Assembly: GCF_009296315.1 (NCBI RefSeq)
Contig: NZ_WHLY01000002.1
Span: 6,174,501 to 6,238,500 of the forward strand
Origin: Salmonirosea aquatica
GTDB taxonomy: Bacteria > Bacteroidota > Bacteroidia > Cytophagales > Spirosomataceae
Length of the DNA: 64,000 bases
Reading direction: 5' to 3'
The translations under genes were made by a program, and so were the position numbers. Positions 1,103 through 15,796 of this stretch are shown one piece after another. The notes beneath the pieces are model-generated. The model was given only the letters and a program-made list of their open reading frames with translations. It had not been told where the DNA came from and did no database searches. Positions within the stretch are counted from its first letter, which is position 1; each line of letters starts with the position of its first letter.

Positions 1103-2251
1103 ATGAAAAATAACCCTTCCTTTACCATCATCGGTGGTGGCATTGCCGGGCTCACCGCCGCCATTGCCCTCAGCCGGATCGGCTTGTCAACCCATGTTTT
1201 TGAAGCATCGCCCCGGCTCCGTCCGCTTGGGGCGGGCCTGGCTCTGGCGGCCAACGCCATGCAAGCCTTCAAACGCCTCGGTATCGCCGATAACGTGATC
1301 CAAAAGGGGAGGCAGATCGATACATTTTCCATTCTGGACGAGGGTGGAAAAACAGTGAGCCGCACCGACAGTCGGGCGGTCAGCGAACGCTACGGCATCG
1401 ACAACTTTGCCATTCACCGGGCCGAATTGCATGAGGTACTACTGAACCAACTACCTACCTCTCAGGTGTCGATTTGCAAGAAGGCCATACGAATCGAGGA
1501 GCTCCCCGGAGGAGTCACTGTCTTTTTCGACGATGGCACTACCCATCGTTCCGACTATCTCCTGGTAGCAGATGGCATTCACTCGCCCATTCGTCAGCAA
1601 CTGGTACCCGGCTCGGTACCGCGCTACGCGGGTTATAGTTGCTGGCGGGCGGTGGTATACCGGCCCGACCTCGCCCTGACCGAAGCCACCGAAACCTGGG
1701 GGCGCCGTGGGCGTGTCGGCATCGTACCGCTTACTGAGAATCGCGTGTACTGGTTTGCCTGCGTGAATGCGCCCGCCCAAAGCCCATTGATGCGACGGAT
1801 GACATCTGCCAGGCTGGCCGAACTTTTCGGAGAATACCACGCTCCAATTCCTGGTTTATTGAGCCAAACCCCAGACGAAAACCTACTCTGGAATGACATC
1901 ATCGATTTGAAACCGCTTTCCAGTTTTGCCTTTGGCCGTACTTTGCTGCTTGGTGATGCCGCCCACGCCACTACCCCTAACATGGGGCAGGGAGCTTGCC
2001 AGGCCATCGAGGATGCAGTGGTACTTGCCGATACCCTGGCGAAAAATGATTCGGTGGAAGAGGCCTTCCGGGAATTTGAAAAACGCCGATTGACGCGTAC
2101 TCGCACCATTACCAATAACTCACGGCGGATCGGGCAAGTGGCACAGTGGAGTAATCCGCTGCTGGCTACGATGCGAAACTACCTTTTCCGCCATATGCCT
2201 GCATCTGCAAATGAGCGGCAACTTGAGATGCTCTATTCGGTTGATTTTTAA
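1103..2251 (+). CDS. FAD-dependent monooxygenase (aromatic hydroxylase type)
   Basis: Class A flavoprotein monooxygenase of the UbiH/salicylate hydroxylase/zeaxanthin epoxidase group, 382 aa, normal length. Visible motifs are the dinucleotide-binding GGGIAG (residues 11-16), a VADGIHS motif near 155 that matches the DG fingerprint contacting FAD and NAD(P)H, and GDAAHATTP near 284-292 (GD motif, FAD ribityl binding) followed by GQGACQAIEDA. No signal peptide, so cytoplasmic. It would hydroxylate or epoxidise an organic substrate using NAD(P)H and oxygen. It lies 128 bp after the O-methyltransferase on the same strand with no hairpin between, so co-transcription is plausible. Related flavoproteins of this size also degrade antibiotics; the substrate here is unknown. 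Confidence 0.85.
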   Translation: MKNNPSFTIIGGGIAGLTAAIALSRIGLSTHVFEASPRLRPLGAGLALAANAMQAFKRLGIADNVIQKGRQIDTFSILDEGGKTVSRTDSRAVSERYGIDNFAIHRAELHEVLLNQLPTSQVSICKKAIRIEELPGGVTVFFDDGTTHRSDYLLVADGIHSPIRQQLVPGSVPRYAGYSCWRAVVYRPDLALTEATETWGRRGRVGIVPLTENRVYWFACVNAPAQSPLMRRMTSARLAELFGEYHAPIPGLLSQTPDENLLWNDIIDLKPLSSFAFGRTLLLGDAAHATTPNMGQGACQAIEDAVVLADTLAKNDSVEEAFREFEKRRLTRTRTITNNSRRIGQVAQWSNPLLATMRNYLFRHMPASANERQLEMLYSVDF

Positions 2252-2310: not shown

Positions 2311-3366
2311 GTGAAAAAATTCTTTGCCCTTGACCGCTACGATCTGATCGTAATGCTGGTTAGTTCGCCAGTCATATTCCTGGCCAACTACCTCATTTTG
2401 GGAAGTACGTATTTTGAGAGAACCGACGTGTTCATACCGGCGACCCTCGGAATGACTGCGTTGTATGTAGTGTCCGCCTGGCTGATGGATGCCTGGATGA
2501 AGTACATGCGTTACCGGTTTGGAGCGCTTGACCAGGCGCTACGCCGGGTAGTCTATTGCCTGATCTTTTACATGACCGCCACGCTGGGGGTGGCCTTTCT
2601 TGTTTTCGCGTTTTACGATTGGTTCAACCTACCAGGGTACCGCTATGACCCCGTGATATTCCGTTGGACGATACTCATCGGCTGGACATCCAATTTGGTT
2701 TCCATCGGTATCACAGAATCTTTTTATTCCTACGGGCAATGGAAAGACAGTGTCCGGCGGGAGTACGAAATCCGGCAATTGCACATGCAAAGGCAATTGG
2801 ACATCCTGAAACACCAGGTGAATCCGCATTTTTTGTTCAACAGCCTCAACTCGCTACTCGCTTTAATCGAAGACGATCCTCAACAGGCCGGACTGTTTGT
2901 GGAGGAGTTGAGTTCGGTCTATAGATACGTGTTGCGGGCCAACCGCGCCGAGGGACCCGACCAAAACCTGACCGACCTGGATACGGAACTCGATTTCATT
3001 CATTCGTATTTTCACTTGCTGAAAACCCGTCATGCCAGCGGGCTTGAACTAATCGTTTCCGTAGACGAAGGTGCGCGGGCAAATTTGCTGCCTCCGCTAA
3101 CGCTTCAACTTTTGGTGGAGAATGCCGTCAAGCATAATATTGTGCTTCCTGAGCTTCCCCTGACAATTGAAATATCCACCGACGGAGCAAATCAGCTTTT
3201 CATCAAAAACACCCTGCAAAGAAAACGGACACGCGTAGCATCCAACGGCGTCGGACTAAGTAATATCCTGACCAAGTACCAGCTATTGGGACAACCGCTG
3301 CCCCATTTTCAGGAATGCGATGGAATGTTTGTGGTCAGCCTGCCTCTGATCCCGGCCCGTTCCTAA
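2311..3366 (+). CDS. LytS-type sensor histidine kinase (HK1)
   Basis: Membrane histidine kinase of the His_kinase (PF06580) plus HATPase type, 351 aa with a GTG start. The N-terminal 140 residues hold about four hydrophobic segments with no sizeable extracytoplasmic domain. The phosphoacceptor motif is VNPHFLFNSLN with H173. The N-box is LVENAVKHN near 268-276, and the glycine box is NGVGLSNI. It would autophosphorylate and pass phosphate to a LytTR regulator; the only one in the window is at 15017-15796. It is the first of six such kinases here and is most like HK3 and HK4 in the C-terminal half (shared SNGVGLSNILTKY). The signal is unknown, and sensing within the membrane is an inference from the topology. 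Confidence 0.9.
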   Translation: MKKFFALDRYDLIVMLVSSPVIFLANYLILGSTYFERTDVFIPATLGMTALYVVSAWLMDAWMKYMRYRFGALDQALRRVVYCLIFYMTATLGVAFLVFAFYDWFNLPGYRYDPVIFRWTILIGWTSNLVSIGITESFYSYGQWKDSVRREYEIRQLHMQRQLDILKHQVNPHFLFNSLNSLLALIEDDPQQAGLFVEELSSVYRYVLRANRAEGPDQNLTDLDTELDFIHSYFHLLKTRHASGLELIVSVDEGARANLLPPLTLQLLVENAVKHNIVLPELPLTIEISTDGANQLFIKNTLQRKRTRVASNGVGLSNILTKYQLLGQPLPHFQECDGMFVVSLPLIPARS

Positions 3367-3397
3367 CAGGGACCCTACCCGTTTCTCCAATCCCTAT

Positions 3398-3422
3398 AAG
3401 CCGCTTCATCAGCGGCTTTTTC
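3398..3422 (+). terminator. Intrinsic terminator after HK1
   Basis: The arms AAGCCGC and GCGGCTT form a 7-bp stem with a 7-base loop, followed by a T-rich run. It lies 32 bp after the HK1 stop and separates HK1 from the glycosyltransferase. Confidence 0.75.
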
Positions 3423-3529
3423 CGTTTCAGGAAACCTACCCTTGAATCCCTGCCTACCTAATTCCAATTTTACACCTACCAAGACGGTCATTCATTCATT
3501 CGAAACCATTTTTTACAAACCAATAAGCC

Positions 3530-4870
3530 ATGAAAAAACAACGCATTTTATTTGCCACTATGCCTATGGATGGGCATTTTAGTCCCCTGACTTCCCTGGC
3601 TAAACACCTTAGCGACCTGGGACATGAAGTTCGCTGGTACGTCGGCGGTCATTACGGGCAGAAAGTAACCCGACTTGGTCTGCATCACTATCCGTTCGTG
3701 AAAGCGCAAACAGTCAATCAGGAAAACCTCGACGTTCTTTTCCCGGAGCGAAAAAACATACAGGGTACCGTGGCACGGCTGCGCTTTGACATCAATCAGG
3801 TGTTTCTGCTGCGTGGGCCCGAATTTGTTGAAGACCTGACTATGATTTATAATGAATGGCCGTACGACCTGATCGTCCATGATGTCGCGTTCATGGGAGG
3901 TTCCCTGATCAGGGAGTTGCTTCCGATCAAATCCGTAGCCGTGGGAGTGATACCCCTGGCCGAGTCGGATAGAAACCTGCCTCCCTCCGGACTGGGAAAA
4001 ATTCCCGCCTCGGGTTGGTTCGAACGTCAGGCCCAGCATATGTTGCGCTACCTGGTACAAGACGTTATGTTCAAACCCTGCAACGATCTGCACAACCAGA
4101 TACGACGTCAACATGGCCTTCCCGCCGTCAAAGGTTTCCTTTTTGACTATGCCGTCCGCTCAGCCGACCTTTATTTGCAGAGTGGGGTACCTTCTTTCGA
4201 ATTTCCACGTGAGCGTATTAGCCCCAACGTCCGTTTTGTCGGCGCTATGCTACCTTACCAACGAGACCGAAAACCATCTTTCGAGTATGCCGGCAAAGCG
4301 TTGGACGCACGGCGGGTGATACTGGTGACCCAGGGGACAGTGGAGAAGGATATTGAAAAAATTCTTGTCCCTACCCTCAAAGCTTTTCAGAATGACCCCG
4401 ATACTCTGGTAATCGCCACAACGGGTGGTTCACAAACGCAGGAATTACGCGACCGCTTTCCGCAGGAACATTTTATCATTGAAGATTTCATTGATTTCAA
4501 CTCCGTGATGCCCTATGCTCATGTATATGTCACCAACGGCGGCTATGGCGGCGTCATGCTGGGGCTAAAGCATAACCTACCCATCGTGGCGGCGGGTGTA
4601 CATGAGGGTAAGAACGAGATTGCGGCCCGCGTCGGTTATTGTGGGGTAGGCGTGAATCTGAAAACCGAAACCCCCAAAGCCAACCAGATTCACCGGGCCG
4701 TGGAGCGGGTGCTATCAGACATTACCTACCGGCAGAATTTGCGAAAACTTAGCAGGGAATTTGATGCGTATCGGGCCAATGAACTAGCCACGCAGCACAT
4801 TCAGGAACTGTTCGAAAAGTCCATTGAACTAGTGTTCACGAACTCTGGATCGCTTTCAGTAACAGATTAA
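3530..4870 (+). CDS. GT1-family (YjiC/macrolide-type) glycosyltransferase
   Basis: GT-B fold glycosyltransferase of the UDP-glucuronosyl/macrolide transferase group, 446 aa. The N-terminal Rossmann half begins RILFATMPMDGHFSPLTSLA, with the conserved GH..P pattern near residues 14-18. The C-terminal donor-binding half carries VTQGTVEKD and the nucleotide-sugar region TNGGYGGVMLG...PIVAAG...EGKNEIAARV. It would transfer a sugar from an NDP-sugar to a lipophilic acceptor in the cytoplasm. Flanking terminators (3398 and 4889) make it a single-gene unit. Its neighbourhood of a methyltransferase and a flavin monooxygenase suggests natural-product tailoring or drug inactivation; the acceptor is not predictable. 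Confidence 0.9.
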   Translation: MKKQRILFATMPMDGHFSPLTSLAKHLSDLGHEVRWYVGGHYGQKVTRLGLHHYPFVKAQTVNQENLDVLFPERKNIQGTVARLRFDINQVFLLRGPEFVEDLTMIYNEWPYDLIVHDVAFMGGSLIRELLPIKSVAVGVIPLAESDRNLPPSGLGKIPASGWFERQAQHMLRYLVQDVMFKPCNDLHNQIRRQHGLPAVKGFLFDYAVRSADLYLQSGVPSFEFPRERISPNVRFVGAMLPYQRDRKPSFEYAGKALDARRVILVTQGTVEKDIEKILVPTLKAFQNDPDTLVIATTGGSQTQELRDRFPQEHFIIEDFIDFNSVMPYAHVYVTNGGYGGVMLGLKHNLPIVAAGVHEGKNEIAARVGYCGVGVNLKTETPKANQIHRAVERVLSDITYRQNLRKLSREFDAYRANELATQHIQELFEKSIELVFTNSGSLSVTD

Positions 4871-4888
4871 GGTAAAGCAGTGTCCATC

Positions 4889-4929
4889 AAACCGCCACCA
4901 GGTTACTTTACATCTGGTGGCGGTTTTTT
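4889..4929 (+). terminator. Intrinsic terminator after the glycosyltransferase
   Basis: Perfect 13-bp arms (4889-4901 and 4914-4926, AAACCGCCACCAG and its complement) with a 12-base loop and a T run ending at 4929. Confidence 0.9.
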
Positions 4930-5053
4930 GTGTTTATAAATTCTTGAAATAAAAGACCTTGAAATAATTTTTGTCAAATATTTAAAAAAACGCTTGACTC
5001 TTCCCTTACGTCATAGCCTTTCTTTGCAGCGTCGGATTCAAAACCATACGGCA

Positions 5054-5839
5054 ATGAAAAGTTTTAGCGTGAAGAAAGTATCCAAAATTTCAGGGGTGAG
5101 TGTGCGCACACTTCATCACTACGATTCTATTGGGTTGTTGAAGCCATCGCACCGTACCGAAGCCGGCTATCGGTATTATGATGAAGCACGACTACTCCGT
5201 TTGCAGCAAATTCTTTTCTACCGGGAACTCGGATTTTCGCTCCGGCAGGTTCGTGAAATACTGGATGATCCGGGTTTCAGTCTGATCTGGGCCTTGGAAA
5301 ATCACAGGTCAGCCCTGGAAAACCGGCAAAAACGAATCGCCAGCCTATTGGTTACGATCGACAGAACCATCCAAAACTTAAAAAAAGGAGAAATTATGAC
5401 AAATCCAGAACAACTTTACGAGGGGTTGCCCAAAGAAGTAGGAATTACCTACCGCCAGGAAGCGATCGACGAATACGGCCAAGATGCCGTTGACCAATCG
5501 GAAAGAGCGTTAATGAAAATGACTAAGGAAGATTTGGAAAAACTCAAAAAGGAACAGGGTCAGATTGCTTCCGAGCTTTTCACCATGCAAAATGAAAACC
5601 CGGAGAGTGATGCCGTGCAACGGGTGATTGCTCGCCACTACGCCAACATCCGAATGTTTTGGGGTACTTCAAATCTACCGGACAAACAGGCGGAAGCCTA
5701 CGCAGGATTAGGAGAATTGTACGTCAATGACGAGAGATTCACGTTGGTCAACGGTGTTCCCCAGCCCGGGTACGCCCTTTTTATGCAGAAAGCTATGCGG
5801 CATTTTGCCAACACCCAGTTGAAAAAGGCTTCTATGTAA
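5054..5839 (+). CDS. MerR-family regulator with TipAS ligand-binding domain
   Basis: TipA-like transcription activator, 261 aa from the ATG at 5054. A TTG start at 4994 would add 20 residues ahead of the MerR domain and is less likely. The N-terminal MerR winged helix reads KVSKISGVSVRTLHHYDSIGLLKPS, followed by a coiled-coil dimerisation helix around 75-110. From about residue 115 a TipAS domain starts (EQLYEGLPKEV...), the antibiotic-binding globin-like fold of this family. MerR proteins twist a long promoter spacer to activate transcription on ligand binding. An in-frame ATG at 5396 (residue 115) follows a strong purine-rich AAAGGAG, so a free TipAS protein may also be made. Targets are not visible; autoregulation is usual in the family. 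Confidence 0.88.
   Translation: MKSFSVKKVSKISGVSVRTLHHYDSIGLLKPSHRTEAGYRYYDEARLLRLQQILFYRELGFSLRQVREILDDPGFSLIWALENHRSALENRQKRIASLLVTIDRTIQNLKKGEIMTNPEQLYEGLPKEVGITYRQEAIDEYGQDAVDQSERALMKMTKEDLEKLKKEQGQIASELFTMQNENPESDAVQRVIARHYANIRMFWGTSNLPDKQAEAYAGLGELYVNDERFTLVNGVPQPGYALFMQKAMRHFANTQLKKASM
5384..5398 (+). promoter_or_regulatory. Candidate internal ribosome binding site and ATG for TipAS
   Basis: AAAGGAG at 5384-5390 sits five bases before an in-frame ATG at 5396, exactly where the ligand-binding domain begins. In Streptomyces tipA the ligand-binding domain is also made separately from an internal start. Here this is an inference from position and spacing. Confidence 0.45.
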
Positions 5840-5863
5840 CGCACAGCCAATCCGTAGTATTTC

Positions 5864-5912
5864 AAAAAGCCAAAAGCCCGGACTCAGAATGAGTCCGGGC
5901 TTTTGGCTTTTT
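5864..5912. terminator. Bidirectional terminator, 23-bp perfect stem
   Basis: Arms of 23 bases (5864-5886 and 5890-5912) are perfectly complementary around a GAA loop. The outer ends are A5 and T5, so it can terminate both the converging TipA-like gene and the secreted-protein gene. Confidence 0.92.
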
Positions 5913-5924
5913 GGGTATGACGGA

Positions 5925-6299
5925 CTAACTCAGCCGAAAGACCCGTTCATTAACCTGGCCGATTACGACTGTCTTGGTCGTGACCTGCTTGCCGATCTTT
6001 ACGCGTACTTCATAGGTACCCGTGCCGAGTTCGGTGAGGTCGAGTGTTTGCTGTGCCCCGTTTTTAAGGCCGATCACATTGTGGTACAATTTCTGCGATT
6101 GGGTCCGAATCTCGATGTTCGCATTGCCTTCCTGGCGATCGAACGCAAGCTTGAGTTTCCCATCCTGGGTCAGCCAGAGGGCCATTTTACCCGACACTAC
6201 ATAGGTCGAGGTTTCGGTACCTGCCGCCAAAGGTTTAGCGTCAGTGTCGGGAGCCAGGCCGAGGGCGCAGGCAAGGGCGAAAGTGATTAGAGTTTTCAT
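5925..6299 (-). CDS. Small secreted beta-rich protein, paralog 1
   Basis: 124 aa with a clear signal peptide (MKTLITFALACALGLAPDTDA). The rest alternates short hydrophobic strands, ending in GTYEVRVKIGKQVTTKTVVIG, which resembles small Ig-like folds of Bacteroidota secreted proteins and, loosely, type IX sorting domains. It is a close paralog of 8152-8520: the signal peptides are nearly identical and the middle shares FxRQEGxAxIExR. Each copy is followed, upstream on the same strand, by LytS kinase sequence; here the kinase copy is decayed (6463-6698). No enzymatic residues are recognisable. A periplasmic or surface partner of the kinases is possible but unproven. Confidence 0.8.
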   Translation of the reverse strand: MKTLITFALACALGLAPDTDAKPLAAGTETSTYVVSGKMALWLTQDGKLKLAFDRQEGNANIEIRTQSQKLYHNVIGLKNGAQQTLDLTELGTGTYEVRVKIGKQVTTKTVVIGQVNERVFRLS

Positions 6300-6366
6300 G
6301 CTAATAGATGGTTTTAATACATGTAGTTTACAAAGACCGCCAATCCATTCGAGCGATTTAGTGTAA

Positions 6367-6374
6367 CAAAGTTG
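6367..6374 (-). promoter_or_regulatory. Candidate promoter -7 element for secreted protein 1
   Basis: On the minus strand this reads CAACTTTG, one base from the Bacteroidota -7 consensus TAnnTTTG. The same octamer precedes paralog 2 at a similar distance (8581-8588). Conservation between the two copies is the main support. Confidence 0.35.
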
Positions 6375-6462
6375 GTGGATTCGGTACTACCCCGAAATTA
6401 CCCAGGGGGTGGAATGTAGATAATTCCGGATGAAGCGTAAGAAGTTCTGAGTGAGCCGGTTT

Positions 6463-6698
6463 CTAAATCAGCGGAAGTACGACCCGAAATTCCTGACTAT
6501 CGTTTCACGCAAGGTTCAGGTTTCCCCAGCATCTCGTACTTGGTCAGAACGTTGCTGATTCCCACGCCGTTGGAAAGGGCGCGGATGGGCTTGCGTTGAA
6601 GGTTATTGCTGACAATCAAGCGATGCCGGGCATCACTGGCCAGTGAAATGATAAGCGGTTGGTCGGGCAGAATGATGTTGTGTTTGACGGCATACATG
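6463..6698 (-). pseudogene. Decayed C-terminal fragment of a LytS-type kinase
   Basis: This matches the last 75 or so codons of HK3 (8677-9705): AVKHNIILPDQPL, SNNLQRKP, ALSNGVGxSNxLTKYEMLG. Homology starts inside the N-box and everything upstream (membrane region, phosphoacceptor His) is absent. Near its end GTG-GAG-GAC of HK3 has become GTG-AAA-C, a two-base loss that shifts the frame to an early stop. In the other frame the tail QEFRVVLPLI and a stop at 6463 are still readable. With the adjacent secreted-protein gene it forms an incomplete duplicate of the 8152-9705 module. It cannot make a working kinase. Confidence 0.9.
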
Positions 6699-6917
6699 GT
6701 AGAAAAATCAATTTAATACCCATTACCTCGCTCTGTTTCCGGGTAGGATTGGCACGTCTTTCGTACCTTACACTGACGAATCCCTCGGCTCCCGTTTCGC
6801 CCCCGTCTTTTTCCGGTTCGTAGGCCAACCAATACGTTTCGTCGGGGTCGTTTGCTGTGTCTGGCGGCCAATTTGCTAATTTAACGCTTTCCTTTCCTAA
6901 AAGTTTTGGCTCAGACT

Positions 6918-7970
6918 ATGCAACGGTTAAATGACCGCTGGATGCGGCTACTGGGAGTTCCGATACTGGCGTTGCTGGGTCAGGGCATGATGTATGGGTA
7001 CACCAACGTACCTTATCCCAACGATTGGCGGATACCGCTGTTTTTTGTGCTCGGCACCATCGTGGTCTGGGAAACCAATCGCATCGGCATTCTGCTCTCC
7101 CGGCGACAGTTCCCCGAACTAGCGCAGACCTGGAAACGGGTACTGCTGCAACTGGTTTGGTTTGTAATTTTCTCGACGCTCATCCGAATCGCCCAAACAG
7201 TAGTCTATCAATTGGTTGGCTTATGGCATGATAAAGATACGTTCGCGTTCAAGGCTTACTTTTTCAATGCACTGGTATCGGTGGTAGGTACCGTACAGAT
7301 AGCCGCGGTGTTCGAAGGCATCTACCTATACGAGCGTTGGAAAGTGTCTTACACCGAGGCTCAGGAGTTGAAAAAAGCCAGCCTGCAAAGTCAGCTCGAT
7401 ACACTTAAAAGCCATATCAATCCTCATTTCCTGTTCAATAACCTCAACTCGCTGTCGGCGCTGATTGACAGCGATGCCCGGCAGGCCGAACGATTCCTGG
7501 ACGAATTCTCGTCCGTATATCGCTATCTGTTGCAGCAACAAAACCGCAATCTGTGTCCGCTGGCCGATGAACTGACCTTTATCGACGCGTATTTTTATCT
7601 CCTTAAAACCCGCTATGGCGAAGGAATTTCACTGCAAAAAGACATTGCCCCGGACTATGAGGACCATCTGATTTCACCTCTGACCTTGCAGATGCTGTTC
7701 GAGCAGATCATCAGCCAAAACATCATCGACGCAGGCAGCCCACTCCTTATCCAGCTTTATGCACGGGATCAGATGGTTTATGTTGAAAGCAACCGGCAGC
7801 CGAAGGCAGTGGCCGGGGACACGGGCCAACCGGGTCTACAAAATATTATTGCGAAGTACCGACTACTTAGCCAGGTGGCCGTATTGGTACAGCAGAACGA
7901 ACATATCGTCCGGGTTGGCATTCCGCTGATTGCGCCCACACCCGTCCCTCCTTCACTCCACTCAACCTAA
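6918..7970 (+). CDS. LytS-type sensor kinase (HK2), degenerate ATP-binding site
   Basis: 350 aa from the ATG at 6918; a TTG at 6906 would add four residues. The start MQRLNDRWMRLLG matches the MNRLNDTWLRIIG start of HK4. There are about four membrane segments in the first 145 residues. The phosphoacceptor motif is intact, INPHFLFNNLNSLSALI with H170. The ATPase part has diverged: where the other kinases have VENAVKHN, this one has FEQIISQN, so the metal-coordinating N-box Asn is Gln263, and the glycine box is GQPGLQNI instead of NGVGLSNI. The His-bearing half is kept, so it may be phosphorylated in trans by another kinase or act as a heterodimer partner (inference). No hairpin follows. Confidence 0.85.
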   Translation: MQRLNDRWMRLLGVPILALLGQGMMYGYTNVPYPNDWRIPLFFVLGTIVVWETNRIGILLSRRQFPELAQTWKRVLLQLVWFVIFSTLIRIAQTVVYQLVGLWHDKDTFAFKAYFFNALVSVVGTVQIAAVFEGIYLYERWKVSYTEAQELKKASLQSQLDTLKSHINPHFLFNNLNSLSALIDSDARQAERFLDEFSSVYRYLLQQQNRNLCPLADELTFIDAYFYLLKTRYGEGISLQKDIAPDYEDHLISPLTLQMLFEQIISQNIIDAGSPLLIQLYARDQMVYVESNRQPKAVAGDTGQPGLQNIIAKYRLLSQVAVLVQQNEHIVRVGIPLIAPTPVPPSLHST

Positions 7971-8092
7971 GTTTAACCGCCTGATTTTCAATAGTTCACC
8001 TAGACAATTGTAACAGGCGAGGACGCATTTGGCTATTAGATAAGCGGCTAATGGAAGGAGTTGGTAAAATGCTTGGACATACATAAAACCAA

Positions 8093-8123
8093 TCGCTCCC
8101 GACTCAAATCGAATCGGGAGCGA
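8093..8123 (-). terminator. Hairpin after secreted protein 2
   Basis: A 10-bp stem, TCGCTCCCGA with TCGGGAGCGA, and an 11-base loop. Read on the minus strand it is followed by GGTTTTAT, a weak T tract. Confidence 0.6.
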
Positions 8124-8151
8124 CTGGTAACGTACGAGAAGCTAGTACTTA

Positions 8152-8520
8152 TTAGTTCAACTTGAAAGTGTGTTCTTTTACGTATCCGATCTCGACGGTC
8201 TTGCTCGTCACCTGCTGACCGATAATCACGCGGATTTCGTAGGTGCCGGAAGGAAGGCGCGACAGGTCGAAGCTCTGCATAGCACCGCCGTGCAGAGCGA
8301 TCACTTCCTGGTAAAGGGTACTCCTTCCGTTGCGCAACTCAATGGTCGCCCGGCCTTCCTGACGGTTGAAGGATACTTTGAGTTTTCCGTTGTCACCCAT
8401 CCACATGGCCATGTTTTTGGTGACGACGTAGGGAGAATTTTCTGCCGAGGGAATCTTGGCGTCAGCGTTGGGAGCCAGGCCGAGGGCGCAGGCAAGGGCG
8501 AAGGTCATTAAAGTTTTCAT
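8152..8520 (-). CDS. Small secreted beta-rich protein, paralog 2
   Basis: 122 aa. The signal peptide MKTLMTFALACALGLAPNADA differs from paralog 1 by only a few residues. The mature part is predicted to be a single beta-sandwich with short strands ending in GTYEIRVIIGQQVTSKTVEIG. No catalytic residues or cysteines stand out. It lies 156 bp downstream of HK3 on the same strand. The space between contains the conserved CAACTTTG element (8581-8588), so it probably has its own promoter as well. The linked duplication of this gene with a kinase argues for a functional pairing. Function unknown; similarity to small Bacteroidota Ig-like secreted proteins is only at fold level. Confidence 0.8.
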   Translation of the reverse strand: MKTLMTFALACALGLAPNADAKIPSAENSPYVVTKNMAMWMGDNGKLKVSFNRQEGRATIELRNGRSTLYQEVIALHGGAMQSFDLSRLPSGTYEIRVIIGQQVTSKTVEIGYVKEHTFKLN

Positions 8521-8580
8521 GCTAATAGATGTTTATGTTTTTTGGTAAAGCCCGCCGAGACATTCGGCGATTCGATGGGA

Positions 8581-8588
8581 CAAAGTTG
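8581..8588 (-). promoter_or_regulatory. Candidate promoter -7 element for secreted protein 2
   Basis: CAACTTTG on the minus strand, identical to the element at 6367-6374 and about 60 bases before the start codon. One mismatch to TAnnTTTG. Confidence 0.35.
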
Positions 8589-8676
8589 ATGGATACGGCA
8601 CAGGTTTGGAAACGCTCTTTTTCCGAACCGCCTCTATTGACCTATAAACCGTAAAAAGTTCGGAATGAGTTGATTC

Positions 8677-9705
8677 TCAGACCAGCGATAGCACGACCCG
8701 AAACTCCTGCCCATCGTCCTCCACGCTAGGCGCGGGTTGGCCAAGCATTTCGTACTTAGTCAGAATGTTACTGAGTCCCACGCCATTGGAAAGGGCGCGA
8801 CTGGGCTTACGTTGAAGGTTATTGCTGATGATCAAACGATGGTGCGCATCGCTCATCAGTGAAATGGTAAGCGGTTGGTCGGGCAGAATGATGTTGTGTT
8901 TGACGGCATTCTCGATCAGTAGCTGTAGCGTCAAAGGAGGAAGTTGCCGTACTTCAGCCTCCGGAACGATATTTATTTCCAGCCGTAGGGCATCCCCGTA
9001 TCGGGTTTTGAGAAGTTGATAATACGATCGGATAAATTCCAGTTCGTTAATCAGCGGTGTCAGTGGACCTTCATTAGACCGCAGCAGGTAGCGGTAGACT
9101 GTACTGAGTTCTTCCGCAAAGATTTCGGCCTGTCGCGGATCTTCCGATATCAAAGAAATCAGCGAATTGAGGCTGTTAAATAAAAAATGGGGGTTCACTT
9201 GCTGCCGTAAGGCATCCAACTGCGCCTGAAGCTGGGCTTTACTGAGGGTATCTACTTCCTGACGCGACTCTGCCCAATGGTTGAAGTTGTGAATGCCCTC
9301 ATACACGAACACTACGACCAGGACAATCAGCACGATAAATAAAAGGGTAAAACCCAGTCGAATTGGGTCAGCCACGAAGTGGGGAAGGGGTAGGTAACGG
9401 TAAATCGCAAAAAGTACCAGGTAATGCAGACACGAACTGATGGTGCACAGAATGTACCGCCAGGCCGCACGACGCATATAATACTCGAGGCCAGGGAACC
9501 GCTGATCGAGTTTGAGAGAAATGTAATTATTGACCAGCCAGTTCTCAAACGAAACGGCTAACGTAAGGAGCGTTGCCAGCCAAAACGTGTTGGCGTGTTG
9601 CCAGTACGCTTCGCCGATCAGAATCCAGTTGACACTACCAATCACGATAGGAAGAACGACAATCTGCAAAAGCTTGTCATGCTTGGAATAGGACGGTAGT
9701 TTCAT
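8677..9705 (-). CDS. LytS-type sensor histidine kinase (HK3)
   Basis: 342 aa with an ATG start. About four hydrophobic segments lie in the first 150 residues, and the last one is very strong (LLFIVLIVLVVVFVYEGI). A short coiled coil (EVDTLSKAQLQAQLDALRQQ) leads into VNPHFLFNSLNSL with phosphoacceptor H173. The N-box is LIENAVKHN and the glycine box SNGVGLSNI. All functional motifs of the PF06580/HATPase pair are present except an acidic DxG box, where NNLQRK is found, as in the neighbouring kinases. It is the parent copy of the fragment at 6463-6698. It is transcribed towards secreted protein 2, and the two may form a unit. Confidence 0.9.
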   Translation of the reverse strand: MKLPSYSKHDKLLQIVVLPIVIGSVNWILIGEAYWQHANTFWLATLLTLAVSFENWLVNNYISLKLDQRFPGLEYYMRRAAWRYILCTISSCLHYLVLFAIYRYLPLPHFVADPIRLGFTLLFIVLIVLVVVFVYEGIHNFNHWAESRQEVDTLSKAQLQAQLDALRQQVNPHFLFNSLNSLISLISEDPRQAEIFAEELSTVYRYLLRSNEGPLTPLINELEFIRSYYQLLKTRYGDALRLEINIVPEAEVRQLPPLTLQLLIENAVKHNIILPDQPLTISLMSDAHHRLIISNNLQRKPSRALSNGVGLSNILTKYEMLGQPAPSVEDDGQEFRVVLSLV

Positions 9706-9932
9706 TATGCGCAGGTGCTGGGAATCTTAGTCAAAAATACGTATTTGACTATTGAACGCAAAACACATTTTTGCCCTACCCTACTTCTTTTCCCCGAGCC
9801 CGACCTATCTCACTTCATCAGGGGCTTTTACCGTTTCATCTGCCTTACCCTTGAAACTCTTTTTGCCCGTATCCACCTTTGTAGCAAGCAATTCCCAGCT
9901 CCAGTTAACAACCTTAAAATATTCTATCAGCC

Positions 9933-10862
9933 ATGAAAAATGTATTTGGTAAAATTATTCTCGTAACTCTACTTGCCTGTGCGCTCGCCTTCCGTCCGGG
10001 TGATGTACTCACCGATCTCAAGCTCAGTTCAGAACAAGTGGGCGAACAGGTTTTTAATCAACTGACCGCTGAGCGTCCCGTTCTGGGCCTACCCTCCGAA
10101 AGCCGGAAGATCGCCCGGCAATTATCGGCCAGTATGCGGGTAGCTTCGGTTCGGGCCCTGTACACCGTGTCCAGGGCTTACGTGCAATCTGATGACTTCC
10201 GTACCCGCTATGATCGTTGGATGAGAAGTAAGTATCACGTCGACGCGGGAAATATGCCGCCCGTAGAGGTATCTTCCGATGAGCTCAGAGTCGCCCAGGA
10301 AGCGCAATTGGCCCAGGTCTTGGCAACATTTTCCACCATGACTCCCCAAATGCTGTCGCTCATGCTTCCCCAGCAAATGGCGACCATTCAGCAGCAAATG
10401 CGTGAGGCGGATGCTCCGACTAAAGCGGCTCTGACGCGCGACATCCTGGTACTGAGGGACATTCAGCCGCTCGCTACGGCCAATCCTTCCGAGTTCAAAA
10501 CCCGCTACCTCGCTTTCATGAAACGTTCGCTGACTCAACAAATGGGGCAAGGTAGGGAAGCCGAGGAAGAACGCCGGGTACAGGTCCGGGAAAAAGTGGA
10601 GGACTACCAACACCGCCTGGCGATGTACCGAGCCAATGCTGACCCTAACCTGGCCATAAAAAAAAGGCTTTCAGCATTTATCACGCTGGCTGAATCCGTA
10701 GACTTTAATGCAGAAACTATACTACAAGGCCACAAAACCGAGTTTGTGCGGGCTGATTACCGCCTTCAGTCGGCAGAGTGGAAGCAACTCTACCGGTTGG
10801 GTCGCGAACCCGTGTTGATAGCCCGTGACCTGGCCCGCGGCTGGCTCAGCGAATTGAACTAA
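9933..10862 (+). CDS. Secreted alpha-helical protein of unknown function
   Basis: 309 aa with an N-terminal signal sequence (MKNVFGKIILVTLLACALAF). The mature protein is rich in Gln, Arg, Ala and Met and appears almost wholly helical, with a Gln/Met-rich middle (residues about 125-165, MLPQQMATIQQQMREAD) and a charged coiled coil near 205-235. I do not recognise a family. It is followed without a gap by a lipoprotein gene on the same strand (stop at 10862, next candidate starts at 10863 and 10902), which suggests an operon. Its place inside the kinase cluster hints at an envelope-related role, but no function can be assigned. Confidence 0.75.
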   Translation: MKNVFGKIILVTLLACALAFRPGDVLTDLKLSSEQVGEQVFNQLTAERPVLGLPSESRKIARQLSASMRVASVRALYTVSRAYVQSDDFRTRYDRWMRSKYHVDAGNMPPVEVSSDELRVAQEAQLAQVLATFSTMTPQMLSLMLPQQMATIQQQMREADAPTKAALTRDILVLRDIQPLATANPSEFKTRYLAFMKRSLTQQMGQGREAEEERRVQVREKVEDYQHRLAMYRANADPNLAIKKRLSAFITLAESVDFNAETILQGHKTEFVRADYRLQSAEWKQLYRLGREPVLIARDLARGWLSELN

Positions 10863-10901
10863 GTGAAATATGTCAAGGTACCCCCAAAAACAAATGTAGT
10901 C

Positions 10902-11633
10902 ATGAAATCTAAACATCTGAATGGCAGTACATTGCCACTGCTTTTACTGTCTCTACTGGCTTGTACCGTTCCCAGTCACGATGGTATTGACCCAGATTCT
11001 TCGCAGAAGGGTACGGTTTCGGGCCGTGCGACCGATGCCGCAGGCAAACCTCTGCCCAACGCAAACATTGTAATCAATAACACGCAATTTTATAACCACA
11101 ATATTCTGGGGCAAACCGACGGAAACGGACAGTATAAGCTGGCCCTCACGCCCGGTTCGTGGTATGTACGGGGAACGGTGCCAATACTGTTCGACAATAA
11201 AAAGTATGTATTGGATCTCCATCCCGATTCTGATGCCGCCTTTGCCGGAACGGAGGGAGCGATTCGAAACCTGAGCTTGAAAATCGCGGGAGAACGAACC
11301 GGTCAGTTTGGCAACGACGGATACTATGGCGGCCAGGTGGAGGTATTCACCTGGGGTCTTCCTGGCGAACAGATCACGCTGACTCTTCAACCCGTGGGTA
11401 CTTTGCTGGATGGCACAACGGGTAAAACGATTGCCGGCAAACTAAGCCAGGGGTACCTTGAGGACGTACCCCTGGGCAAATACACCGTGTCGGCCAAGCT
11501 AGGTGGGCAGCCCCTTCAGGTAAGAGTACGAAACAGCGGTCAGGAATACCGTAGTAGTGTGACGGCCAGCTTTGATCCTGCCTACCCCGGTGCTGAGGGG
11601 CGCTACAAACTAAATATTGAAGTGAGTGAATGA
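10902..11633 (+). CDS. Lipoprotein with carboxypeptidase-regulatory-like domain
   Basis: 243 aa from the ATG at 10902. A GTG at 10863 in the same frame would put 13 extra residues before the signal peptide and is less likely. The start MKSKHLNGSTLPLLLLSLLAC ends in an LLAC lipobox, so export and lipidation of Cys21 are expected. The mature part begins with a CarboxypepD_reg-like beta-sandwich (GTVSGRATDAAGKPLPNANI...), then unrecognised beta-rich sequence. Such domains usually act as surface or scaffold modules. The gene directly follows the helical secreted protein at 9933, probably in one transcript. No enzymatic motif is seen. Confidence 0.8.
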   Translation: MKSKHLNGSTLPLLLLSLLACTVPSHDGIDPDSSQKGTVSGRATDAAGKPLPNANIVINNTQFYNHNILGQTDGNGQYKLALTPGSWYVRGTVPILFDNKKYVLDLHPDSDAAFAGTEGAIRNLSLKIAGERTGQFGNDGYYGGQVEVFTWGLPGEQITLTLQPVGTLLDGTTGKTIAGKLSQGYLEDVPLGKYTVSAKLGGQPLQVRVRNSGQEYRSSVTASFDPAYPGAEGRYKLNIEVSE

Positions 11634-11768
11634 CGGGTCATTTCCAGAAAGTACCGCTTCATGGGATATAATTTCCGTTTTGTTGGGCAGGGAGTTTAGA
11701 CATGCCGGAAATAGTAATAAACTTTAGGCTGGTTTTTCCGGCACTCTTTTCTCAACCTGGCCTGTACC

Positions 11769-12866
11769 TTGAACCGTCTTAACGATACCTGGCTCCGTAT
11801 CATCGGTATTTCCACCCTGCTGGCGATCAGTATTTCCGTGAACGACTACTACCAGCGGCCGTACAGCCCCCGGATGCTGTTCAAAATCATGGTCACCCTC
11901 GGTACAATCACAGCGATTTGGCATGTGATGCGGTACCTCCTCATTTATTTTCGGAAGCGTTACCCGCGGAAATCCCAGTTCATAAAGCGGCTATCGTTAA
12001 CGTTTCTTGCGAGTAGCTTCATTAACACAGTAATCATCTGGCTGTCGTGGGCCCTCCAGCATTTGATTACCTACGGCTCGCTGACCGATTTCCGCATTTA
12101 CCATGACATGGCCAGTATTACCGTCAACAACCATAAGCTTTCTTTGGGCTTGTATGGATTTGATATAGTGCTGGCGGTCGTTAACTTCCTTTTTTTTCAG
12201 GTCATGTACGAAATCGTCTTTTTCATCCATGATTCCATCATCCGGGAAAAACAACTCCGGCTGGCCGAGCAGGAACGTGAAATGCTTCGCGCGGCCAATC
12301 TGCAAAGTCAACTTGATGCGCTCAAGCAGCAGGTTAACCCCCATTTTCTGTTCAATAGTCTAAATGCCCTGGACTCCCTCATTGAGGATGACCCGCCCCG
12401 GGCGCGGGTTTTTCTGGAAGAACTCAGTACCGTCTACCGCTACCTGCTCCGCTCAAACGAACACCACCTGATTGATTTGGAGAAGGAGCTGGGTTTCATC
12501 CAATCGTACTATCATTTGTTGAAAACCCGCCTGGGCGACGGCCTGCAGTTGAATCTGGTCATCGACGACCGTTACCGGACCTACAAGCTACCCACGCTAA
12601 CCCTGCAATTGCTGGTCGAAAATGCTTTTAAGCACAATATCGTGTTACCCGACCAGCCACTCGTGATAGATATCCGTACCGATCAGGCCGGTAATCTTCT
12701 TATCCAGAATAATATACAGCGTAAGAATGTAAGGGTGGCTTCGAATGGCGTGGGGTTGAGCAATATCCTGACCAAGTACCGGGTTCTGAGCCAGCCTACC
12801 CCTACCATCCGGGAGGCAAACGGCCAGTTTGAGGTAACCCTGCCGTTGATAGATGCGAGTAATTAA
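11769..12866 (+). CDS. LytS-type sensor histidine kinase (HK4)
   Basis: 365 aa. The TTG start at 11769 is supported because MNRLNDTWLRIIG matches the start of HK2, which has an ATG. About four membrane segments are followed by a charged helix (REKQLRLAEQEREMLR) and VNPHFLFNSLNALDSLI with phosphoacceptor H192. The N-box LVENAFKHN and glycine box SNGVGLSNI are intact. The C-terminal half is closest to HK1 and HK3. It lies 45 bp upstream of HK5 with no hairpin between, so HK4-HK5-HK6 are probably one operon. Stimulus unknown. Confidence 0.9.
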   Translation: MNRLNDTWLRIIGISTLLAISISVNDYYQRPYSPRMLFKIMVTLGTITAIWHVMRYLLIYFRKRYPRKSQFIKRLSLTFLASSFINTVIIWLSWALQHLITYGSLTDFRIYHDMASITVNNHKLSLGLYGFDIVLAVVNFLFFQVMYEIVFFIHDSIIREKQLRLAEQEREMLRAANLQSQLDALKQQVNPHFLFNSLNALDSLIEDDPPRARVFLEELSTVYRYLLRSNEHHLIDLEKELGFIQSYYHLLKTRLGDGLQLNLVIDDRYRTYKLPTLTLQLLVENAFKHNIVLPDQPLVIDIRTDQAGNLLIQNNIQRKNVRVASNGVGLSNILTKYRVLSQPTPTIREANGQFEVTLPLIDASN

Positions 12867-12911
12867 CTCGTATTTTTGAAGAAATATGGGGCCAAATAAA
12901 CTCTTTTGCGC

Positions 12912-13961
12912 ATGACACTTTCCATCGAACAGAAAATCCGTCTGGCGGGCCCGATCCTACTGTTTCTAATAGGTACCCTGTTTTTTCGACTGAACTGGTA
13001 TTTCGAATTGCCGACTGGCGAATTAATCCGCTCCGACATCATTGGCCTGACGGCGGGCTACCTGTGTTGGAATTTGACCCGCTGGGTCGTACAGCGGCTT
13101 CAGATACGCTTCCCTGGTCTGACGAACACCCGCCGCCGCTTACTCTGGATGGGACTATTGCTACCCCTCCTGGTCAACATTGCCTGGCTGCTGCGCCAGT
13201 TTTTACATATTGGATTCAACGATGCATCCTACATCTGGGTGTCCGTTTCGGCCTATACCTACGCGCTGGGAATACAGATTTTCTACCACGGCATTTACTA
13301 TACTATTTATGAAGGTGGGTACGTGTTACAGGAATGGCAGCGAAGCTATGAACACAATGAGTGGCTCAAGAAAAACAAGCTACAGCATCAGCTCGAAACC
13401 CTGAAAAGCCAGATTAACCCCCATTTTCTATTCAATAGCCTCAACTCACTCTCCATGCTGATCCATGATAACCCACGGCAGGCCGAGGCTTTTGTGGACG
13501 AAATCAGCAATGTGTATAGGTACCTGCTTCGGGCCAACGAGCAGCCCCTAACTACTTTGAGGCGGGAATTACAGTTTATTCAATCCTATTTCCAACTGCT
13601 CAAAACCCGCTATGGCCCTGGTATCGATTTGCGGATTTTGGTAGAAGCCGAACAGCTGGAGGCCAAAATCCCCCCGCTGACATTGCAGTTGCTTGTTGAA
13701 AACGCCGTGAAACATAATGCCGTCCTGCCCGAGCAACCCCTAATGGTCCTCATTGAGGCACGGGGGCAATACCTGGAGGTGCGGAACAATCTTAACCGAA
13801 AAAACTCAACCCTTCAATCCAACCGGGTAGGCCTGGCCAATATTTCCGCCAAGTACACATTACTCAGTAGCCAGTCTATCTCAGTCCGGGAGGAAGATGG
13901 CTATTTTGTGGTTACGCTTCCTTTATTGGCTTTTGAATCACAAACCTATCCCGGCATATGA
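12912..13961 (+). CDS. LytS-type sensor histidine kinase (HK5)
   Basis: 349 aa from the ATG at 12912; a TTG two codons upstream is an alternative. The membrane part carries FFRLNWYFELP, shared almost exactly with HK6, so the two are tandem duplicates. The phosphoacceptor is INPHFLFNSLNSLSMLI, H171, with N-box LVENAVKHN. The glycine box is NRVGLANI, with Arg in place of the first Gly, which may lower but need not abolish ATP binding. Its TGA stop overlaps the ATG of HK6 (ATGA, 13958-13961), a sign of translational coupling. Confidence 0.9.
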   Translation: MTLSIEQKIRLAGPILLFLIGTLFFRLNWYFELPTGELIRSDIIGLTAGYLCWNLTRWVVQRLQIRFPGLTNTRRRLLWMGLLLPLLVNIAWLLRQFLHIGFNDASYIWVSVSAYTYALGIQIFYHGIYYTIYEGGYVLQEWQRSYEHNEWLKKNKLQHQLETLKSQINPHFLFNSLNSLSMLIHDNPRQAEAFVDEISNVYRYLLRANEQPLTTLRRELQFIQSYFQLLKTRYGPGIDLRILVEAEQLEAKIPPLTLQLLVENAVKHNAVLPEQPLMVLIEARGQYLEVRNNLNRKNSTLQSNRVGLANISAKYTLLSSQSISVREEDGYFVVTLPLLAFESQTYPGI

Positions 13962-15010
13962 AGGCCCCACCCAACGATACCCGACTCCGTTTGCTTGGCC
14001 CGCTGGGGCTTTTTGTGTTCGTTGGTGTATTTTTCCGGCTCGACTGGTACTTTCAACTTCCTTTCAAAACGATCCTGATCAACGATACCATTGCGCTGAT
14101 TGCCGGATTGGTTTCCTGGCAAATTGCCCGGTGGGTGGTACTGCGGATTCAGAAAAATTATCCCGGCCTGGCCAATTCCCCACGCCGTCTGCTGTGGCTG
14201 CTGGCTGTATTGCCCGTGCTGGCCAATTTTGCCTGGGTGATGCGCCATGCCGCCCGTTTTTTGATTGATGGCAAGTTTCTGTACTTCAACAATACAATTG
14301 AACTAAGCCGAACCATAGGAATTCAACTTTTTTACCACTTCATCTACTTCACAGTATATGAGGTATGGTACATTCTGCGGCAATGGCATCGCGAAACGGT
14401 AGAAACCAATGCCCTGGAGAAGACGTCGCTGCAAAGTCAGCTGTCTTCCTTACAGCACCAGGTCAACCCCCATTTTCTATTCAACAGCCTTAATTCGCTC
14501 TCCTCACTCATAGGCGAAAATCCGCACCATGCCGATGCTTTTCTGGAAGAGCTTACCTCGGTCTTCAGGTACCTTTTACAGGCGAGTGAAAGGTACCTGG
14601 TCACTCTGGGAGAGGAAGTGACCTTCATCCACTCCTACGGCCATTTGCTCCAAGCCCGCTATCAACAGGGAATACGCCTCGAACTGGACATTGATCATGC
14701 CTACGAATCGCTGGCGGTTGCGCCACTGACGCTCCAGATTCTGGTGGAGAATGCCGTGCGCTACAATGTAACGCTGCCCGAGCAACCTCTGCACATTCGG
14801 ATTTTCACCACCCCCGAACGAAGGCTTGGTGTGGCCAATACGCTCCAACGCAGATCCCTCCGCGTCGAAACGACCGGGGGCGGGCTAACCAACCTAACCA
14901 TGCGCTACGCCCTGCTCAACGAGGGGGAGCTGCTGATCGAAGAACAGCCGGAGTGGTTCCTGGTCAGTGTACCCCTTATCAGCAAAACCACCGTGGAAGC
15001 CACGAACTAG
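13958..15010 (+). CDS. LytS-type sensor histidine kinase (HK6)
   Basis: 350 aa, overlapping HK5 by four bases. The N-terminal half has about four membrane segments with FFRLDWYFQLP, the HK5 signature. The phosphoacceptor is VNPHFLFNSLNSLSSLI, H172. The N-box LVENAVRYN keeps the Asn but changes the usual KH to RY. The glycine box is GGGLTNLTMRY. It is the last kinase in the series and converges with the LytTR regulator six bases away. It is the most diverged of the active-looking copies. Partner and stimulus unknown. Confidence 0.9.
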   Translation: MKAPPNDTRLRLLGPLGLFVFVGVFFRLDWYFQLPFKTILINDTIALIAGLVSWQIARWVVLRIQKNYPGLANSPRRLLWLLAVLPVLANFAWVMRHAARFLIDGKFLYFNNTIELSRTIGIQLFYHFIYFTVYEVWYILRQWHRETVETNALEKTSLQSQLSSLQHQVNPHFLFNSLNSLSSLIGENPHHADAFLEELTSVFRYLLQASERYLVTLGEEVTFIHSYGHLLQARYQQGIRLELDIDHAYESLAVAPLTLQILVENAVRYNVTLPEQPLHIRIFTTPERRLGVANTLQRRSLRVETTGGGLTNLTMRYALLNEGELLIEEQPEWFLVSVPLISKTTVEATN

Positions 15011-15016
15011 GTACCC

Positions 15017-15796
15017 CTATTTCCCCATCCATTTCTTAAAGTCCGTGGCGCGCTCGCGGCTGACCAGCACTTCGTCGTCGGTGGCGGGCTTAAGGGTGAG
15101 TTTTAGTTTGTTGTTAAAATAAGGGTGAATCTGCTGGACTGATGCAACGCTGACGATATACTGCCGATTGGCCCGGAAAAATTGTCCGGGATCAAGCATG
15201 GCCTCGAGTTCGTCGAGGGTATAATCGAGCGAAAACTTCTGATTGGAACGGGTACGGAACAGGCTCACACCCGTCTCAGAGGTAAAATAGGCGATGTCGC
15301 CTACTTCTACAGGTACCCACTGTGAAAGGTGCCGCACCAGAAACCGGCGGCGATAGTCGGCGGGGGCCACCTGCTGACGTAACTGCTGCACCAGGGCATC
15401 AATGGCCACCGTAGGAGCAGACTCTTTGTTGAGTTTCCGGTATTTTTCCAGGCTGGCTTCCAGTTCGTATCGTTTGATGGGCTTCAGTAGGTAATCAATG
15501 CTATTCACCTTGAAAGCACGTAGGGCATACTCATCGTATGAAGTCGTAAAAATCACCGGGGCTGTAACGGTGGTCTGCTCGAATATTTCGAAGCTCTGCC
15601 CATCCGCCAGCTCAATATCCATCAGTATCAGGTCCGGAGCGCCGGGTTGACCCGGCGCGTTGTCCTCGAGCCATTTTACCGAAGCCCTCACACTGGGGGT
15701 GGTACCTACGATACTAAGGGTAGGGTCCACCTCCTGCAGCAGGCGGGTAAGCTTTCGAACTGCTAATGCTTCGTCTTCAATGATCAATACGTTCAT
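15017..15796 (-). CDS. LytTR-family response regulator
   Basis: 259 aa from the ATG at 15796. An in-frame upstream start at 15877 would put 27 poorly conserved residues before the receiver domain. The receiver domain MNVLIIEDEA... has the phosphoacceptor D60 in LILMDIELADG and the conserved Lys105 in YLLKPI. A linker follows, then a LytTR DNA-binding domain from about 155 to 255 (RFLVRHLSQWVPVEVGDIAYF..., FFRANRQYIV). It binds DNA as a beta-rich LytTR fold, usually at direct repeats. It is the only response regulator in the window and lies convergent with HK6, so it is the likely target of several of the six kinases (inference). Confidence 0.93.
   Translation of the reverse strand: MNVLIIEDEALAVRKLTRLLQEVDPTLSIVGTTPSVRASVKWLEDNAPGQPGAPDLILMDIELADGQSFEIFEQTTVTAPVIFTTSYDEYALRAFKVNSIDYLLKPIKRYELEASLEKYRKLNKESAPTVAIDALVQQLRQQVAPADYRRRFLVRHLSQWVPVEVGDIAYFTSETGVSLFRTRSNQKFSLDYTLDELEAMLDPGQFFRANRQYIVSVASVQQIHPYFNNKLKLTLKPATDDEVLVSRERATDFKKWMGK

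Follow-up and report, generated by a model that had tools for sequence, protein, structure and literature searches.

Six LytS-type kinase genes and one LytTR response regulator in Salmonirosea aquatica: a possible many-to-one hub with a candidate pseudokinase

The kinase cluster

In the genome of Salmonirosea aquatica (7.07 Mb, 4 contigs) we analyzed a stretch of 64,000 nucleotides of contig NZ_WHLY01000002.1 (positions 6,174,501 to 6,238,500), here called the window. Between its positions 2311 and 15796 lie six genes for histidine kinases of the LytS type (HK1 to HK6), the remnant of a seventh and the gene of a single response regulator (RR) (Table 1). A preliminary description of the window had named this set, and the open reading frames together with Pfam searches find all of it, the remnant being a copy of HK3. 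The tandem of HK4, HK5 and HK6 is also as had been described, with HK5 and HK6 overlapping by ATGA at 13958-13961. The parts are ordinary by family assignment, since Pfam assigns the six kinases to PF06580 and the regulator to REC-LytTR. All six kinases score above the Pfam cut-off (74.5-87.1 bits against 25.2), and so do the REC (48.2 bits) and LytTR (73.1 bits) domains of the RR. The RR further matches the NCBIfam models BtsR and LytR below their cut-offs, and its Asp60, taken as the receiver aspartate, is invariant in an alignment of 13 sequences that includes the window RR.

Table 1. Features of the kinase cluster, its surroundings and the sister cluster (window positions unless a locus is named)
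Feature	Position	Strand	Remarks
O-methyltransferase (MT)	1-974	+	start lies before the window; PF00891 above cut-off
FAD monooxygenase (FMO)	1103-2251	+	NF005243 409.7 bits, cut-off 365
HK1, PF06580 kinase	2311-3366	+	H-, N- and G-boxes intact
Terminator-like hairpin after HK1	3398-3418		from a terminator scan with a near-chance total
UDP-glycosyltransferase (GT), MGT-like	3530-4870	+	PF00201 and PF06722 above cut-off; MGT model below cut-off
MerR regulator with TipAS antibiotic-recognition domain	5057-5839		between HK1 and HK2
S1, small exported protein	5925-6299	-	paralogue of S2, 58% identity
Remnant of an HK3 copy	~6491-6712	-	C-terminal ATPase part only; by similarity to HK3
HK2, pseudokinase candidate	6906-7970	+	His kept, ATP site altered
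S2, small exported protein	8152-8520	-	downstream of HK3, same strand
HK3	8677-9705	-	motifs intact
X, protein of unknown family	9933-10862	+	52-55% identity in Telluribacter L059/L060, syntenic with HK4
Y, lipoprotein-like, CarboxypepD_reg	10863-11633	+	two paralogues in the upstream sister cluster
HK4	11769-12866	+	motifs intact; first gene of the three-kinase tandem
HK5	12906-13961	+	motifs intact
HK6	13958-15010	+	N-box ENAVRYN
REC-LytTR response regulator (RR)	15017-15796	-	convergent with HK6, 6-base gap
Protein with two DUF1599 (nucleotide modification associated) stretches	16112-16660		adjoins RR
Sister cluster	L029 8373-14557 = genome C2:6146551-6152735		kinases 8373-9494, 9491-10612, 12460-13590
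Sister-cluster Y lipoproteins	L029 11598-12410, 13766-14557		CarboxypepD_reg

All six kinases carry the phospho-acceptor histidine within the motif NPHFLFN. The asparagine of the N-box, which we take to have a role in the ATP site, and the glycine of the G-box are found in five of the six; HK2 lacks the N-box asparagine. As had been noted before, the membrane halves of the kinases differ and the kinase halves are similar, with mean pairwise identities of 20% (14-40%) and 47% (39-59%), respectively. The AlphaFold2 model of HK5 (mean predicted local distance difference test score 87) shows four long N-terminal helices, presumably embedded in the membrane, and lacks an extracytoplasmic domain. 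The kinase domain of GanS from Geobacillus (6swj, 6swk) is the sole solved structure matched by sequence at E 0.01 and is the best fold match too.

Kinases and regulators in the genome

Genome-wide we find 31 matches to PF06580 and 39 to LytTR. All 39 LytTR matches were placed, 29 of them in a tree; nine without a long N-terminal part and one of 553 amino acids were left out of the latter. Thirteen kinases, all six window kinases among them, form one clade (support 100/99, values rough), and six REC-LytTR regulators form another (100/100) together with one long-branched membrane-bound LytTR protein. Four of these six RRs have one kinase each, the window RR has six, and a paralogous RR about 40 kb upstream of it, outside the window, has three. 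This sister cluster consists of an altered kinase (LLDYAVRHN), an intact kinase, the RR, a Y gene, a third kinase (DNALKYN) and a second Y gene, in that order. In Persicitalea jodogahamensis (L084) its three kinases and RR are found with the order kept and at 82-90% identity. Two further Y homologues are encoded at C2:5345987-5347558, with another of the clade's kinase/RR pairs about 9 kb away. A membrane-bound LytTR protein (G000:C2:3590831, L038) has no receiver and its membrane half resembles that of HK4 (E 2e-6), as if a sensor half had been joined directly to an output domain.

The statement that only one RR is present thus holds for the stretch; in the genome there is the second, paralogous one with its three kinases. 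The suggestion that several inputs converge on one output gains from the clade matching of 13 kinases with six RRs, which is one to one outside the two clusters. A private distant regulator for each kinase would have spoken against that suggestion. None of the six RRs lacks a nearby kinase of the 13-member clade, and four REC-LytTR-like genes without a PF06580 neighbour fall outside the RR clade, their receivers being judged from sequence and not by Pfam. After the placing of the 39 LytTR matches, private distant regulators are not supported. It is conceivable that window kinases also use the sister RR 40 kb away.

Orthologues and origin of the cluster

For each of HK2 to HK6 there is an orthologue in other genera near an RR that is 83-84% identical to the window RR. 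HK2 orthologues occur in five genomes of the family at 59-68% identity, which is above the identity of HK2 to its paralogues. In two of them (G025, G030) the orthologue follows immediately downstream of an RR gene, with identities to the window RR of 50% and 57%. In a third (G003) the order is RR-GT-HK2, with HK2 about 7 kb from an 84% identical RR and GT between them; no other kinase was found in the 40 kb read. The 40 kb read in the remaining two (G015, G017) showed no RR of this clade, save a 28% match in G015.

The synteny is most extensive in Telluribacter (G014/L060, G306/L059), where the genes follow one another as HK3(-), GT, X, HK4, HK5, HK6, RR(-). This order is given as in G306, G014 being its mirror image. 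It is the order and orientation of the window except for GT, which sits at a different place in the window. In Spirosoma spitsbergense (L058) we find RR, a split HK6, an HK4-like kinase, MT, HK3 and FMO; the HK6 orthologue at L058 10773-11792 consists of two open frames. A further genome (G304) has RR-HK2-HK3-HK3', that is, two copies of HK3. Orthologues of HK3 are thus near an RR in G014, G306, G304 and S. spitsbergense. In a quick tree HK3, HK4, HK5 and HK6 each fall into a three-member group with kinases of other genera (support 93-100). HK1 has as its nearest relatives in the tree four single kinases, each next to an RR with 67-69% identity to the window RR.

Because these orthologues lie near RRs in other genera, the cluster is, as far as synteny can tell, mainly a set of separate kinase lineages gathered at one RR locus. 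The preliminary description had spoken of a local expansion, which is misleading. A recent tandem expansion as the main origin is rejected, as HK3 to HK6 each group with kinases of other genera and HK2 is closer to its orthologues than to its paralogues. By similarity, the only plain local duplicate at the locus is the HK3 remnant, which matches residues 267-329 of HK3 with 82.5% identity over 63 amino acids. It lies upstream of S1 just as HK3 lies upstream of S2. The two stretches of S plus HK3 sequence align at 70% DNA identity over 756 columns, which suggests a single old segmental duplication followed by decay of the kinase part of one copy. A third S paralogue is located between the two kinase clusters (L030 6443-6823). 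S1 has weak matches to DUF3244 and Por_Secre_tail below the cut-off. The 80 loci L058-L137 yielded no homologue of S. S as a general kinase partner was therefore dropped and is kept out of the mechanism proposed below.

ATP-site alteration at multi-kinase regulators

HK2 is the pseudokinase candidate of the cluster. It keeps the His box NPHFLFN, has EQIISQN in place of ENAxKHN and QPGL in the G-box, and thus lacks the asparagine and the lysine of the N-box, both of which are kept in its five orthologues. An in-frame ATG at 6918 agrees with the starts of these orthologues. Where the five orthologues are invariant, HK2 has changed 10/39 columns in the ATPase half, 6/70 in the membrane half and 6/53 in the His domain.

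We then counted altered kinases at related regulators. A kinase was called altered when the E or N, the K/R or the H/Y of the N-box or the G of the G-box was changed, and strictly altered when N, K/R or H/Y was changed. The rule was written after viewing the motifs of a discovery set and was fixed and unchanged before a validation set was scored. The discovery set comprises 82 RRs from loci with a kinase match, including the window and L029. Six of 80 loci (L073, L101, L104, L112, L115, L133) had no kinase match and were not counted, so that the share of kinase-less RRs is understated. RR homologues without a kinase of this clade in the stretch read are those of L259, L260 and L263 as well as L073 and L101, the latter two from Larkinella. 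Kinases below 150 bits (the fragments in L058, one in L094, the window remnant) and HK1, which is more than 10.5 kb from the RR, were excluded. The validation set comprises 77 further RRs from 80 stretches, which are part of the RR matches; 8 duplicates were dropped and near-copies from the same genus were kept.

Single-kinase RRs are the commonest (97/159), and 58 of the 159 RRs have at least two kinases. The preliminary description had called the cluster unusual. This is right for the number, since six kinases per RR is the largest among the 159 RRs and the listed matches of a further set; it does not apply to the principle. Altered kinases make up 50/143 at multi-kinase loci and 2/97 at single-kinase loci. 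The discovery set has 31/84 (strict 22) at 34 multi-kinase RRs against 1/47 (strict 0) at single-kinase RRs, and the validation set 19/59 (strict 9) at 24 multi-kinase RRs against 1/50 (strict 1). With relatedness ignored, the Fisher p values are 1.6e-6 and 2.9e-5 for the two sets and 3.6e-5 and 0.02 by the strict rule. At least one altered kinase is present at 29/34 and 16/24 multi-kinase RRs, and an intact kinase is kept at every one (34/34 and 24/24). The His is present in nearly all kinases of these RRs (83/84 and 59/59). The exception is an altered kinase of Spirosoma arboris (L083 7789-8871), which has Asp instead (NPDFLFN) and lies beside an intact kinase.

The pairs are also ordered. 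Where just one of two kinases at a locus is altered, its gene is RR-distal and on the same strand as the intact one in 31/31 cases. In the His half, altered kinases are 46.0% identical to single kinases and their partners 48.5%; in the ATPase half the values are 31.5% and 43.9%. For one pair, the altered kinase of the sister cluster and its Persicitalea orthologue, the ratio of nonsynonymous to synonymous substitution rates (dN/dS) is 0.17 (His domain 0.10, ATPase 0.26); for the intact neighbour it is 0.08. The window genome shows the asymmetry only via HK2 and the sister cluster. The association of altered kinases with multi-kinase RRs is real in the counts, although related species share these operons.

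Neighbouring genes and possible targets

The families of MT, GT, FMO and the MerR-TipAS protein suggest small-molecule modification. We counted linkage of these families to 87 RRs, with a distance of 5 kb that was chosen after the synteny had been seen; matches from the same genus are not independent. Members of the FMO family lie within 5 kb of a clade RR in 4/11 matches (0.08 expected; two genera) and those of the GT family in 5/21 (0.1 expected; four genera). MT, whose linkage to the RR is seen in a single relative (S. spitsbergense), appears to be the weakest case of a target gene. That the small-molecule-modifying genes are targets of the RR is a conjecture which we hold with more doubt than belief. 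Scans for sigma-70 promoters (13 sites, 13.3 expected) and for terminators (20 against 17) gave no basis for a conclusion. Far from the cluster, at 63147-63518, the window contains a transfer-messenger RNA gene with the tag GEYNYAMAA.

Discussion

We suggest that signalling at this locus proceeds in the following steps. Several membrane kinases with unlike membrane halves and alike kinase halves would feed one LytTR regulator, as clade matching and synteny indicate. Since the dimerisation and His domain is well conserved, a kinase may pair with a different one as well as with its own kind. An intact partner could then phosphorylate HK2 in trans, and HK2 would hand the phosphate on to the regulator, its membrane half thereby adding an input without catalysis of its own. 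The regulator may control the neighbouring GT and FMO, whose linkage is recurrent, on weaker ground MT, and perhaps, at a guess, the secreted S and Y proteins as well. The cluster would have grown mainly by the gathering of lineages and by loss and duplication of single kinases rather than by one tandem expansion. We regard the many-to-one hub as probable. Mixed pairs of kinase and pseudokinase are plausible, though we put them somewhat below an even chance; indirect support for heterodimers comes from how often an intact kinase is accompanied by one that has an altered ATP site but keeps its His. For the whole reading, hub, heteromers and gathered lineages together, the chances fall just short of even.

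A number of observations weigh against this reading. Multi-kinase RRs without any altered kinase exist (5/34 in the discovery and 8/24 in the validation set), and the nearest multi-kinase relatives (L058, L059, L060, L257) belong to them. On a tree of 241 kinases, from which the motif columns had been removed, the altered state changes 10 times, and 44/52 altered rows fall into two weakly supported groups, in which 28 of 35 and 16 of 16 rows are altered. A relatedness-aware pair test of multi-kinase against altered state was not significant (6 usable pairs, median p 1) and lacks power. Many altered calls are E-to-D only, and the strict count of the validation set is 9/59 against 1/50 (p 0.02). 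HK2 itself belongs to neither altered group, does not stand in the order altered-intact-RR and has intact nearest relatives. It is a lone loss and may simply be decaying. Moreover, the HK2 orthologue of G003, whose N-box is intact, has changed 9/48 ATPase-half columns that are invariant in the four others. The target genes are proposed from linkage alone. Finally, the pseudokinase ChrS of Corynebacterium glutamicum did not need its His, according to the excerpted report (PMC9491836).

Part of this evidence would fit convergent homodimers, in which each intact kinase senses its own signal and all phosphorylate the one RR, with HK2 irrelevant and no mixed pairs. Five of the six window kinases pass the motif rule (HK1, by motifs alone, and HK3 to HK6) and could each act as homodimers, the three RR-adjacent kinases of Telluribacter are all intact, and the prevalence of single-kinase RRs (97/159) indicates that one kind of kinase suffices elsewhere. 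Such homodimers would leave unexplained, however, why intact and altered kinases with a kept His are so frequently paired in a fixed order and why one altered kinase is under constraint (dN/dS 0.17). We consider them unlikely, if still a serious alternative.

It is less likely again that the locus is largely a kinase graveyard, where HK4-HK5-HK6 and the RR, perhaps with HK3, work and HK2, the remnant and perhaps HK1 are leftovers. The remnant beside S1, the loss of the ATP site in HK2 next to five intact orthologues, the HK6 split into two open reading frames in S. spitsbergense (L058) and the conservation of just the HK4-HK6 triplet with Telluribacter would agree with it. Yet HK2 is a full-length open frame whose membrane and His halves are less changed than its ATPase half, and orthologues of HK2 and HK3 remain near an RR in other genera. 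The least probable alternative, and a very improbable one in our view, is a shared pool. All nine kinases, from either cluster, would then signal to the window RR and its paralogue alike, and the six would not serve the window RR exclusively. The two RRs do fall into one clade, as do the kinases, and paralogues of S and Y are found at or between both clusters; against this, the stretches read have the two types separately, the sister type in Persicitalea (L084) and the window type in Telluribacter (L059/L060).

In the usual description a histidine kinase forms a homodimer and has a regulator of its own. The 143 kinases at 58 multi-kinase regulators display a frequent asymmetry, with one partner keeping the ATP site and another mainly the His. 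If the hub with mixed pairs is true, a regulator gains sensors without gaining catalysis, and the input becomes combinatorial. For the window the question is then which kinases pair, rather than which of them signals to the regulator. One may go further and suppose a Bacteroidota-wide class of heteromeric LytS-type receptors, built as an operon of altered kinase, intact kinase and LytTR regulator, with the ATP-dead, His-bearing kinase as obligate partner. The window would be an enlarged form, with one regulator reading combinations of up to six sensors. This supposition is possible and somewhat on the doubtful side. The three-gene operons are short, are spread over many genera and lend themselves to two-hybrid and phosphotransfer experiments. 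The kinase number, the lineages gathered at one RR and the frequent intact/altered pairing look new; in the literature covered by our search, which left subscription papers and preprints outside, we did not find kinase/pseudokinase LytS-LytTR operons described in Bacteroidetes.

Comparison with known systems

Systems of the LytS/LytTR type such as BtsSR and LytSR combine, like the window, a PF06580 kinase with a REC-LytTR regulator. They are usually described with one kinase per regulator. The likeness of GanS (6swj, 6swk) to the window kinases covers the kinase domain only. The genes of the Pseudomonas kinases GacS, RetS and LadS are not known to form one gene cluster. For the three systems that follow we rely on excerpts of the cited reports. 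GacS, RetS and LadS are a case of several kinases on one system, with heterodimers, but they are hybrid kinases and RetS inhibits (PMC12189002). In C. glutamicum the paralogous native kinases ChrS and HrrS heterodimerise by two-hybrid, and ChrS without a working ATPase domain still raises signalling (PMC9491836). There, however, the altered form is a laboratory-evolution mutant, two RRs are involved and the truncated form showed no heterodimer, as far as the excerpt goes (PMC9491836).

Closest is FasBCA of group A Streptococcus. FasB and FasC heterodimerise by two-hybrid, and the ATPase domain of FasC is dispensable while its His is needed, so that a pseudokinase is proposed by the authors (PMC12675982). 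Both there and in the window at least two kinase-like membrane proteins are linked to one regulator, and the sequences of HK2 and of partner kinases elsewhere would fit a kept His with an altered ATPase domain. The systems differ in that FasBCA has two kinases, the window six, and the evidence is genetic there and drawn from sequence and synteny here. The Fas kinases are further predicted to have six transmembrane helices (PMC12675982), whereas the HK5 model has four long N-terminal helices, and this difference in helix number (four against six) does not argue for kinship. By function, FasBCA nevertheless appears to be the best working parallel for the window cluster.

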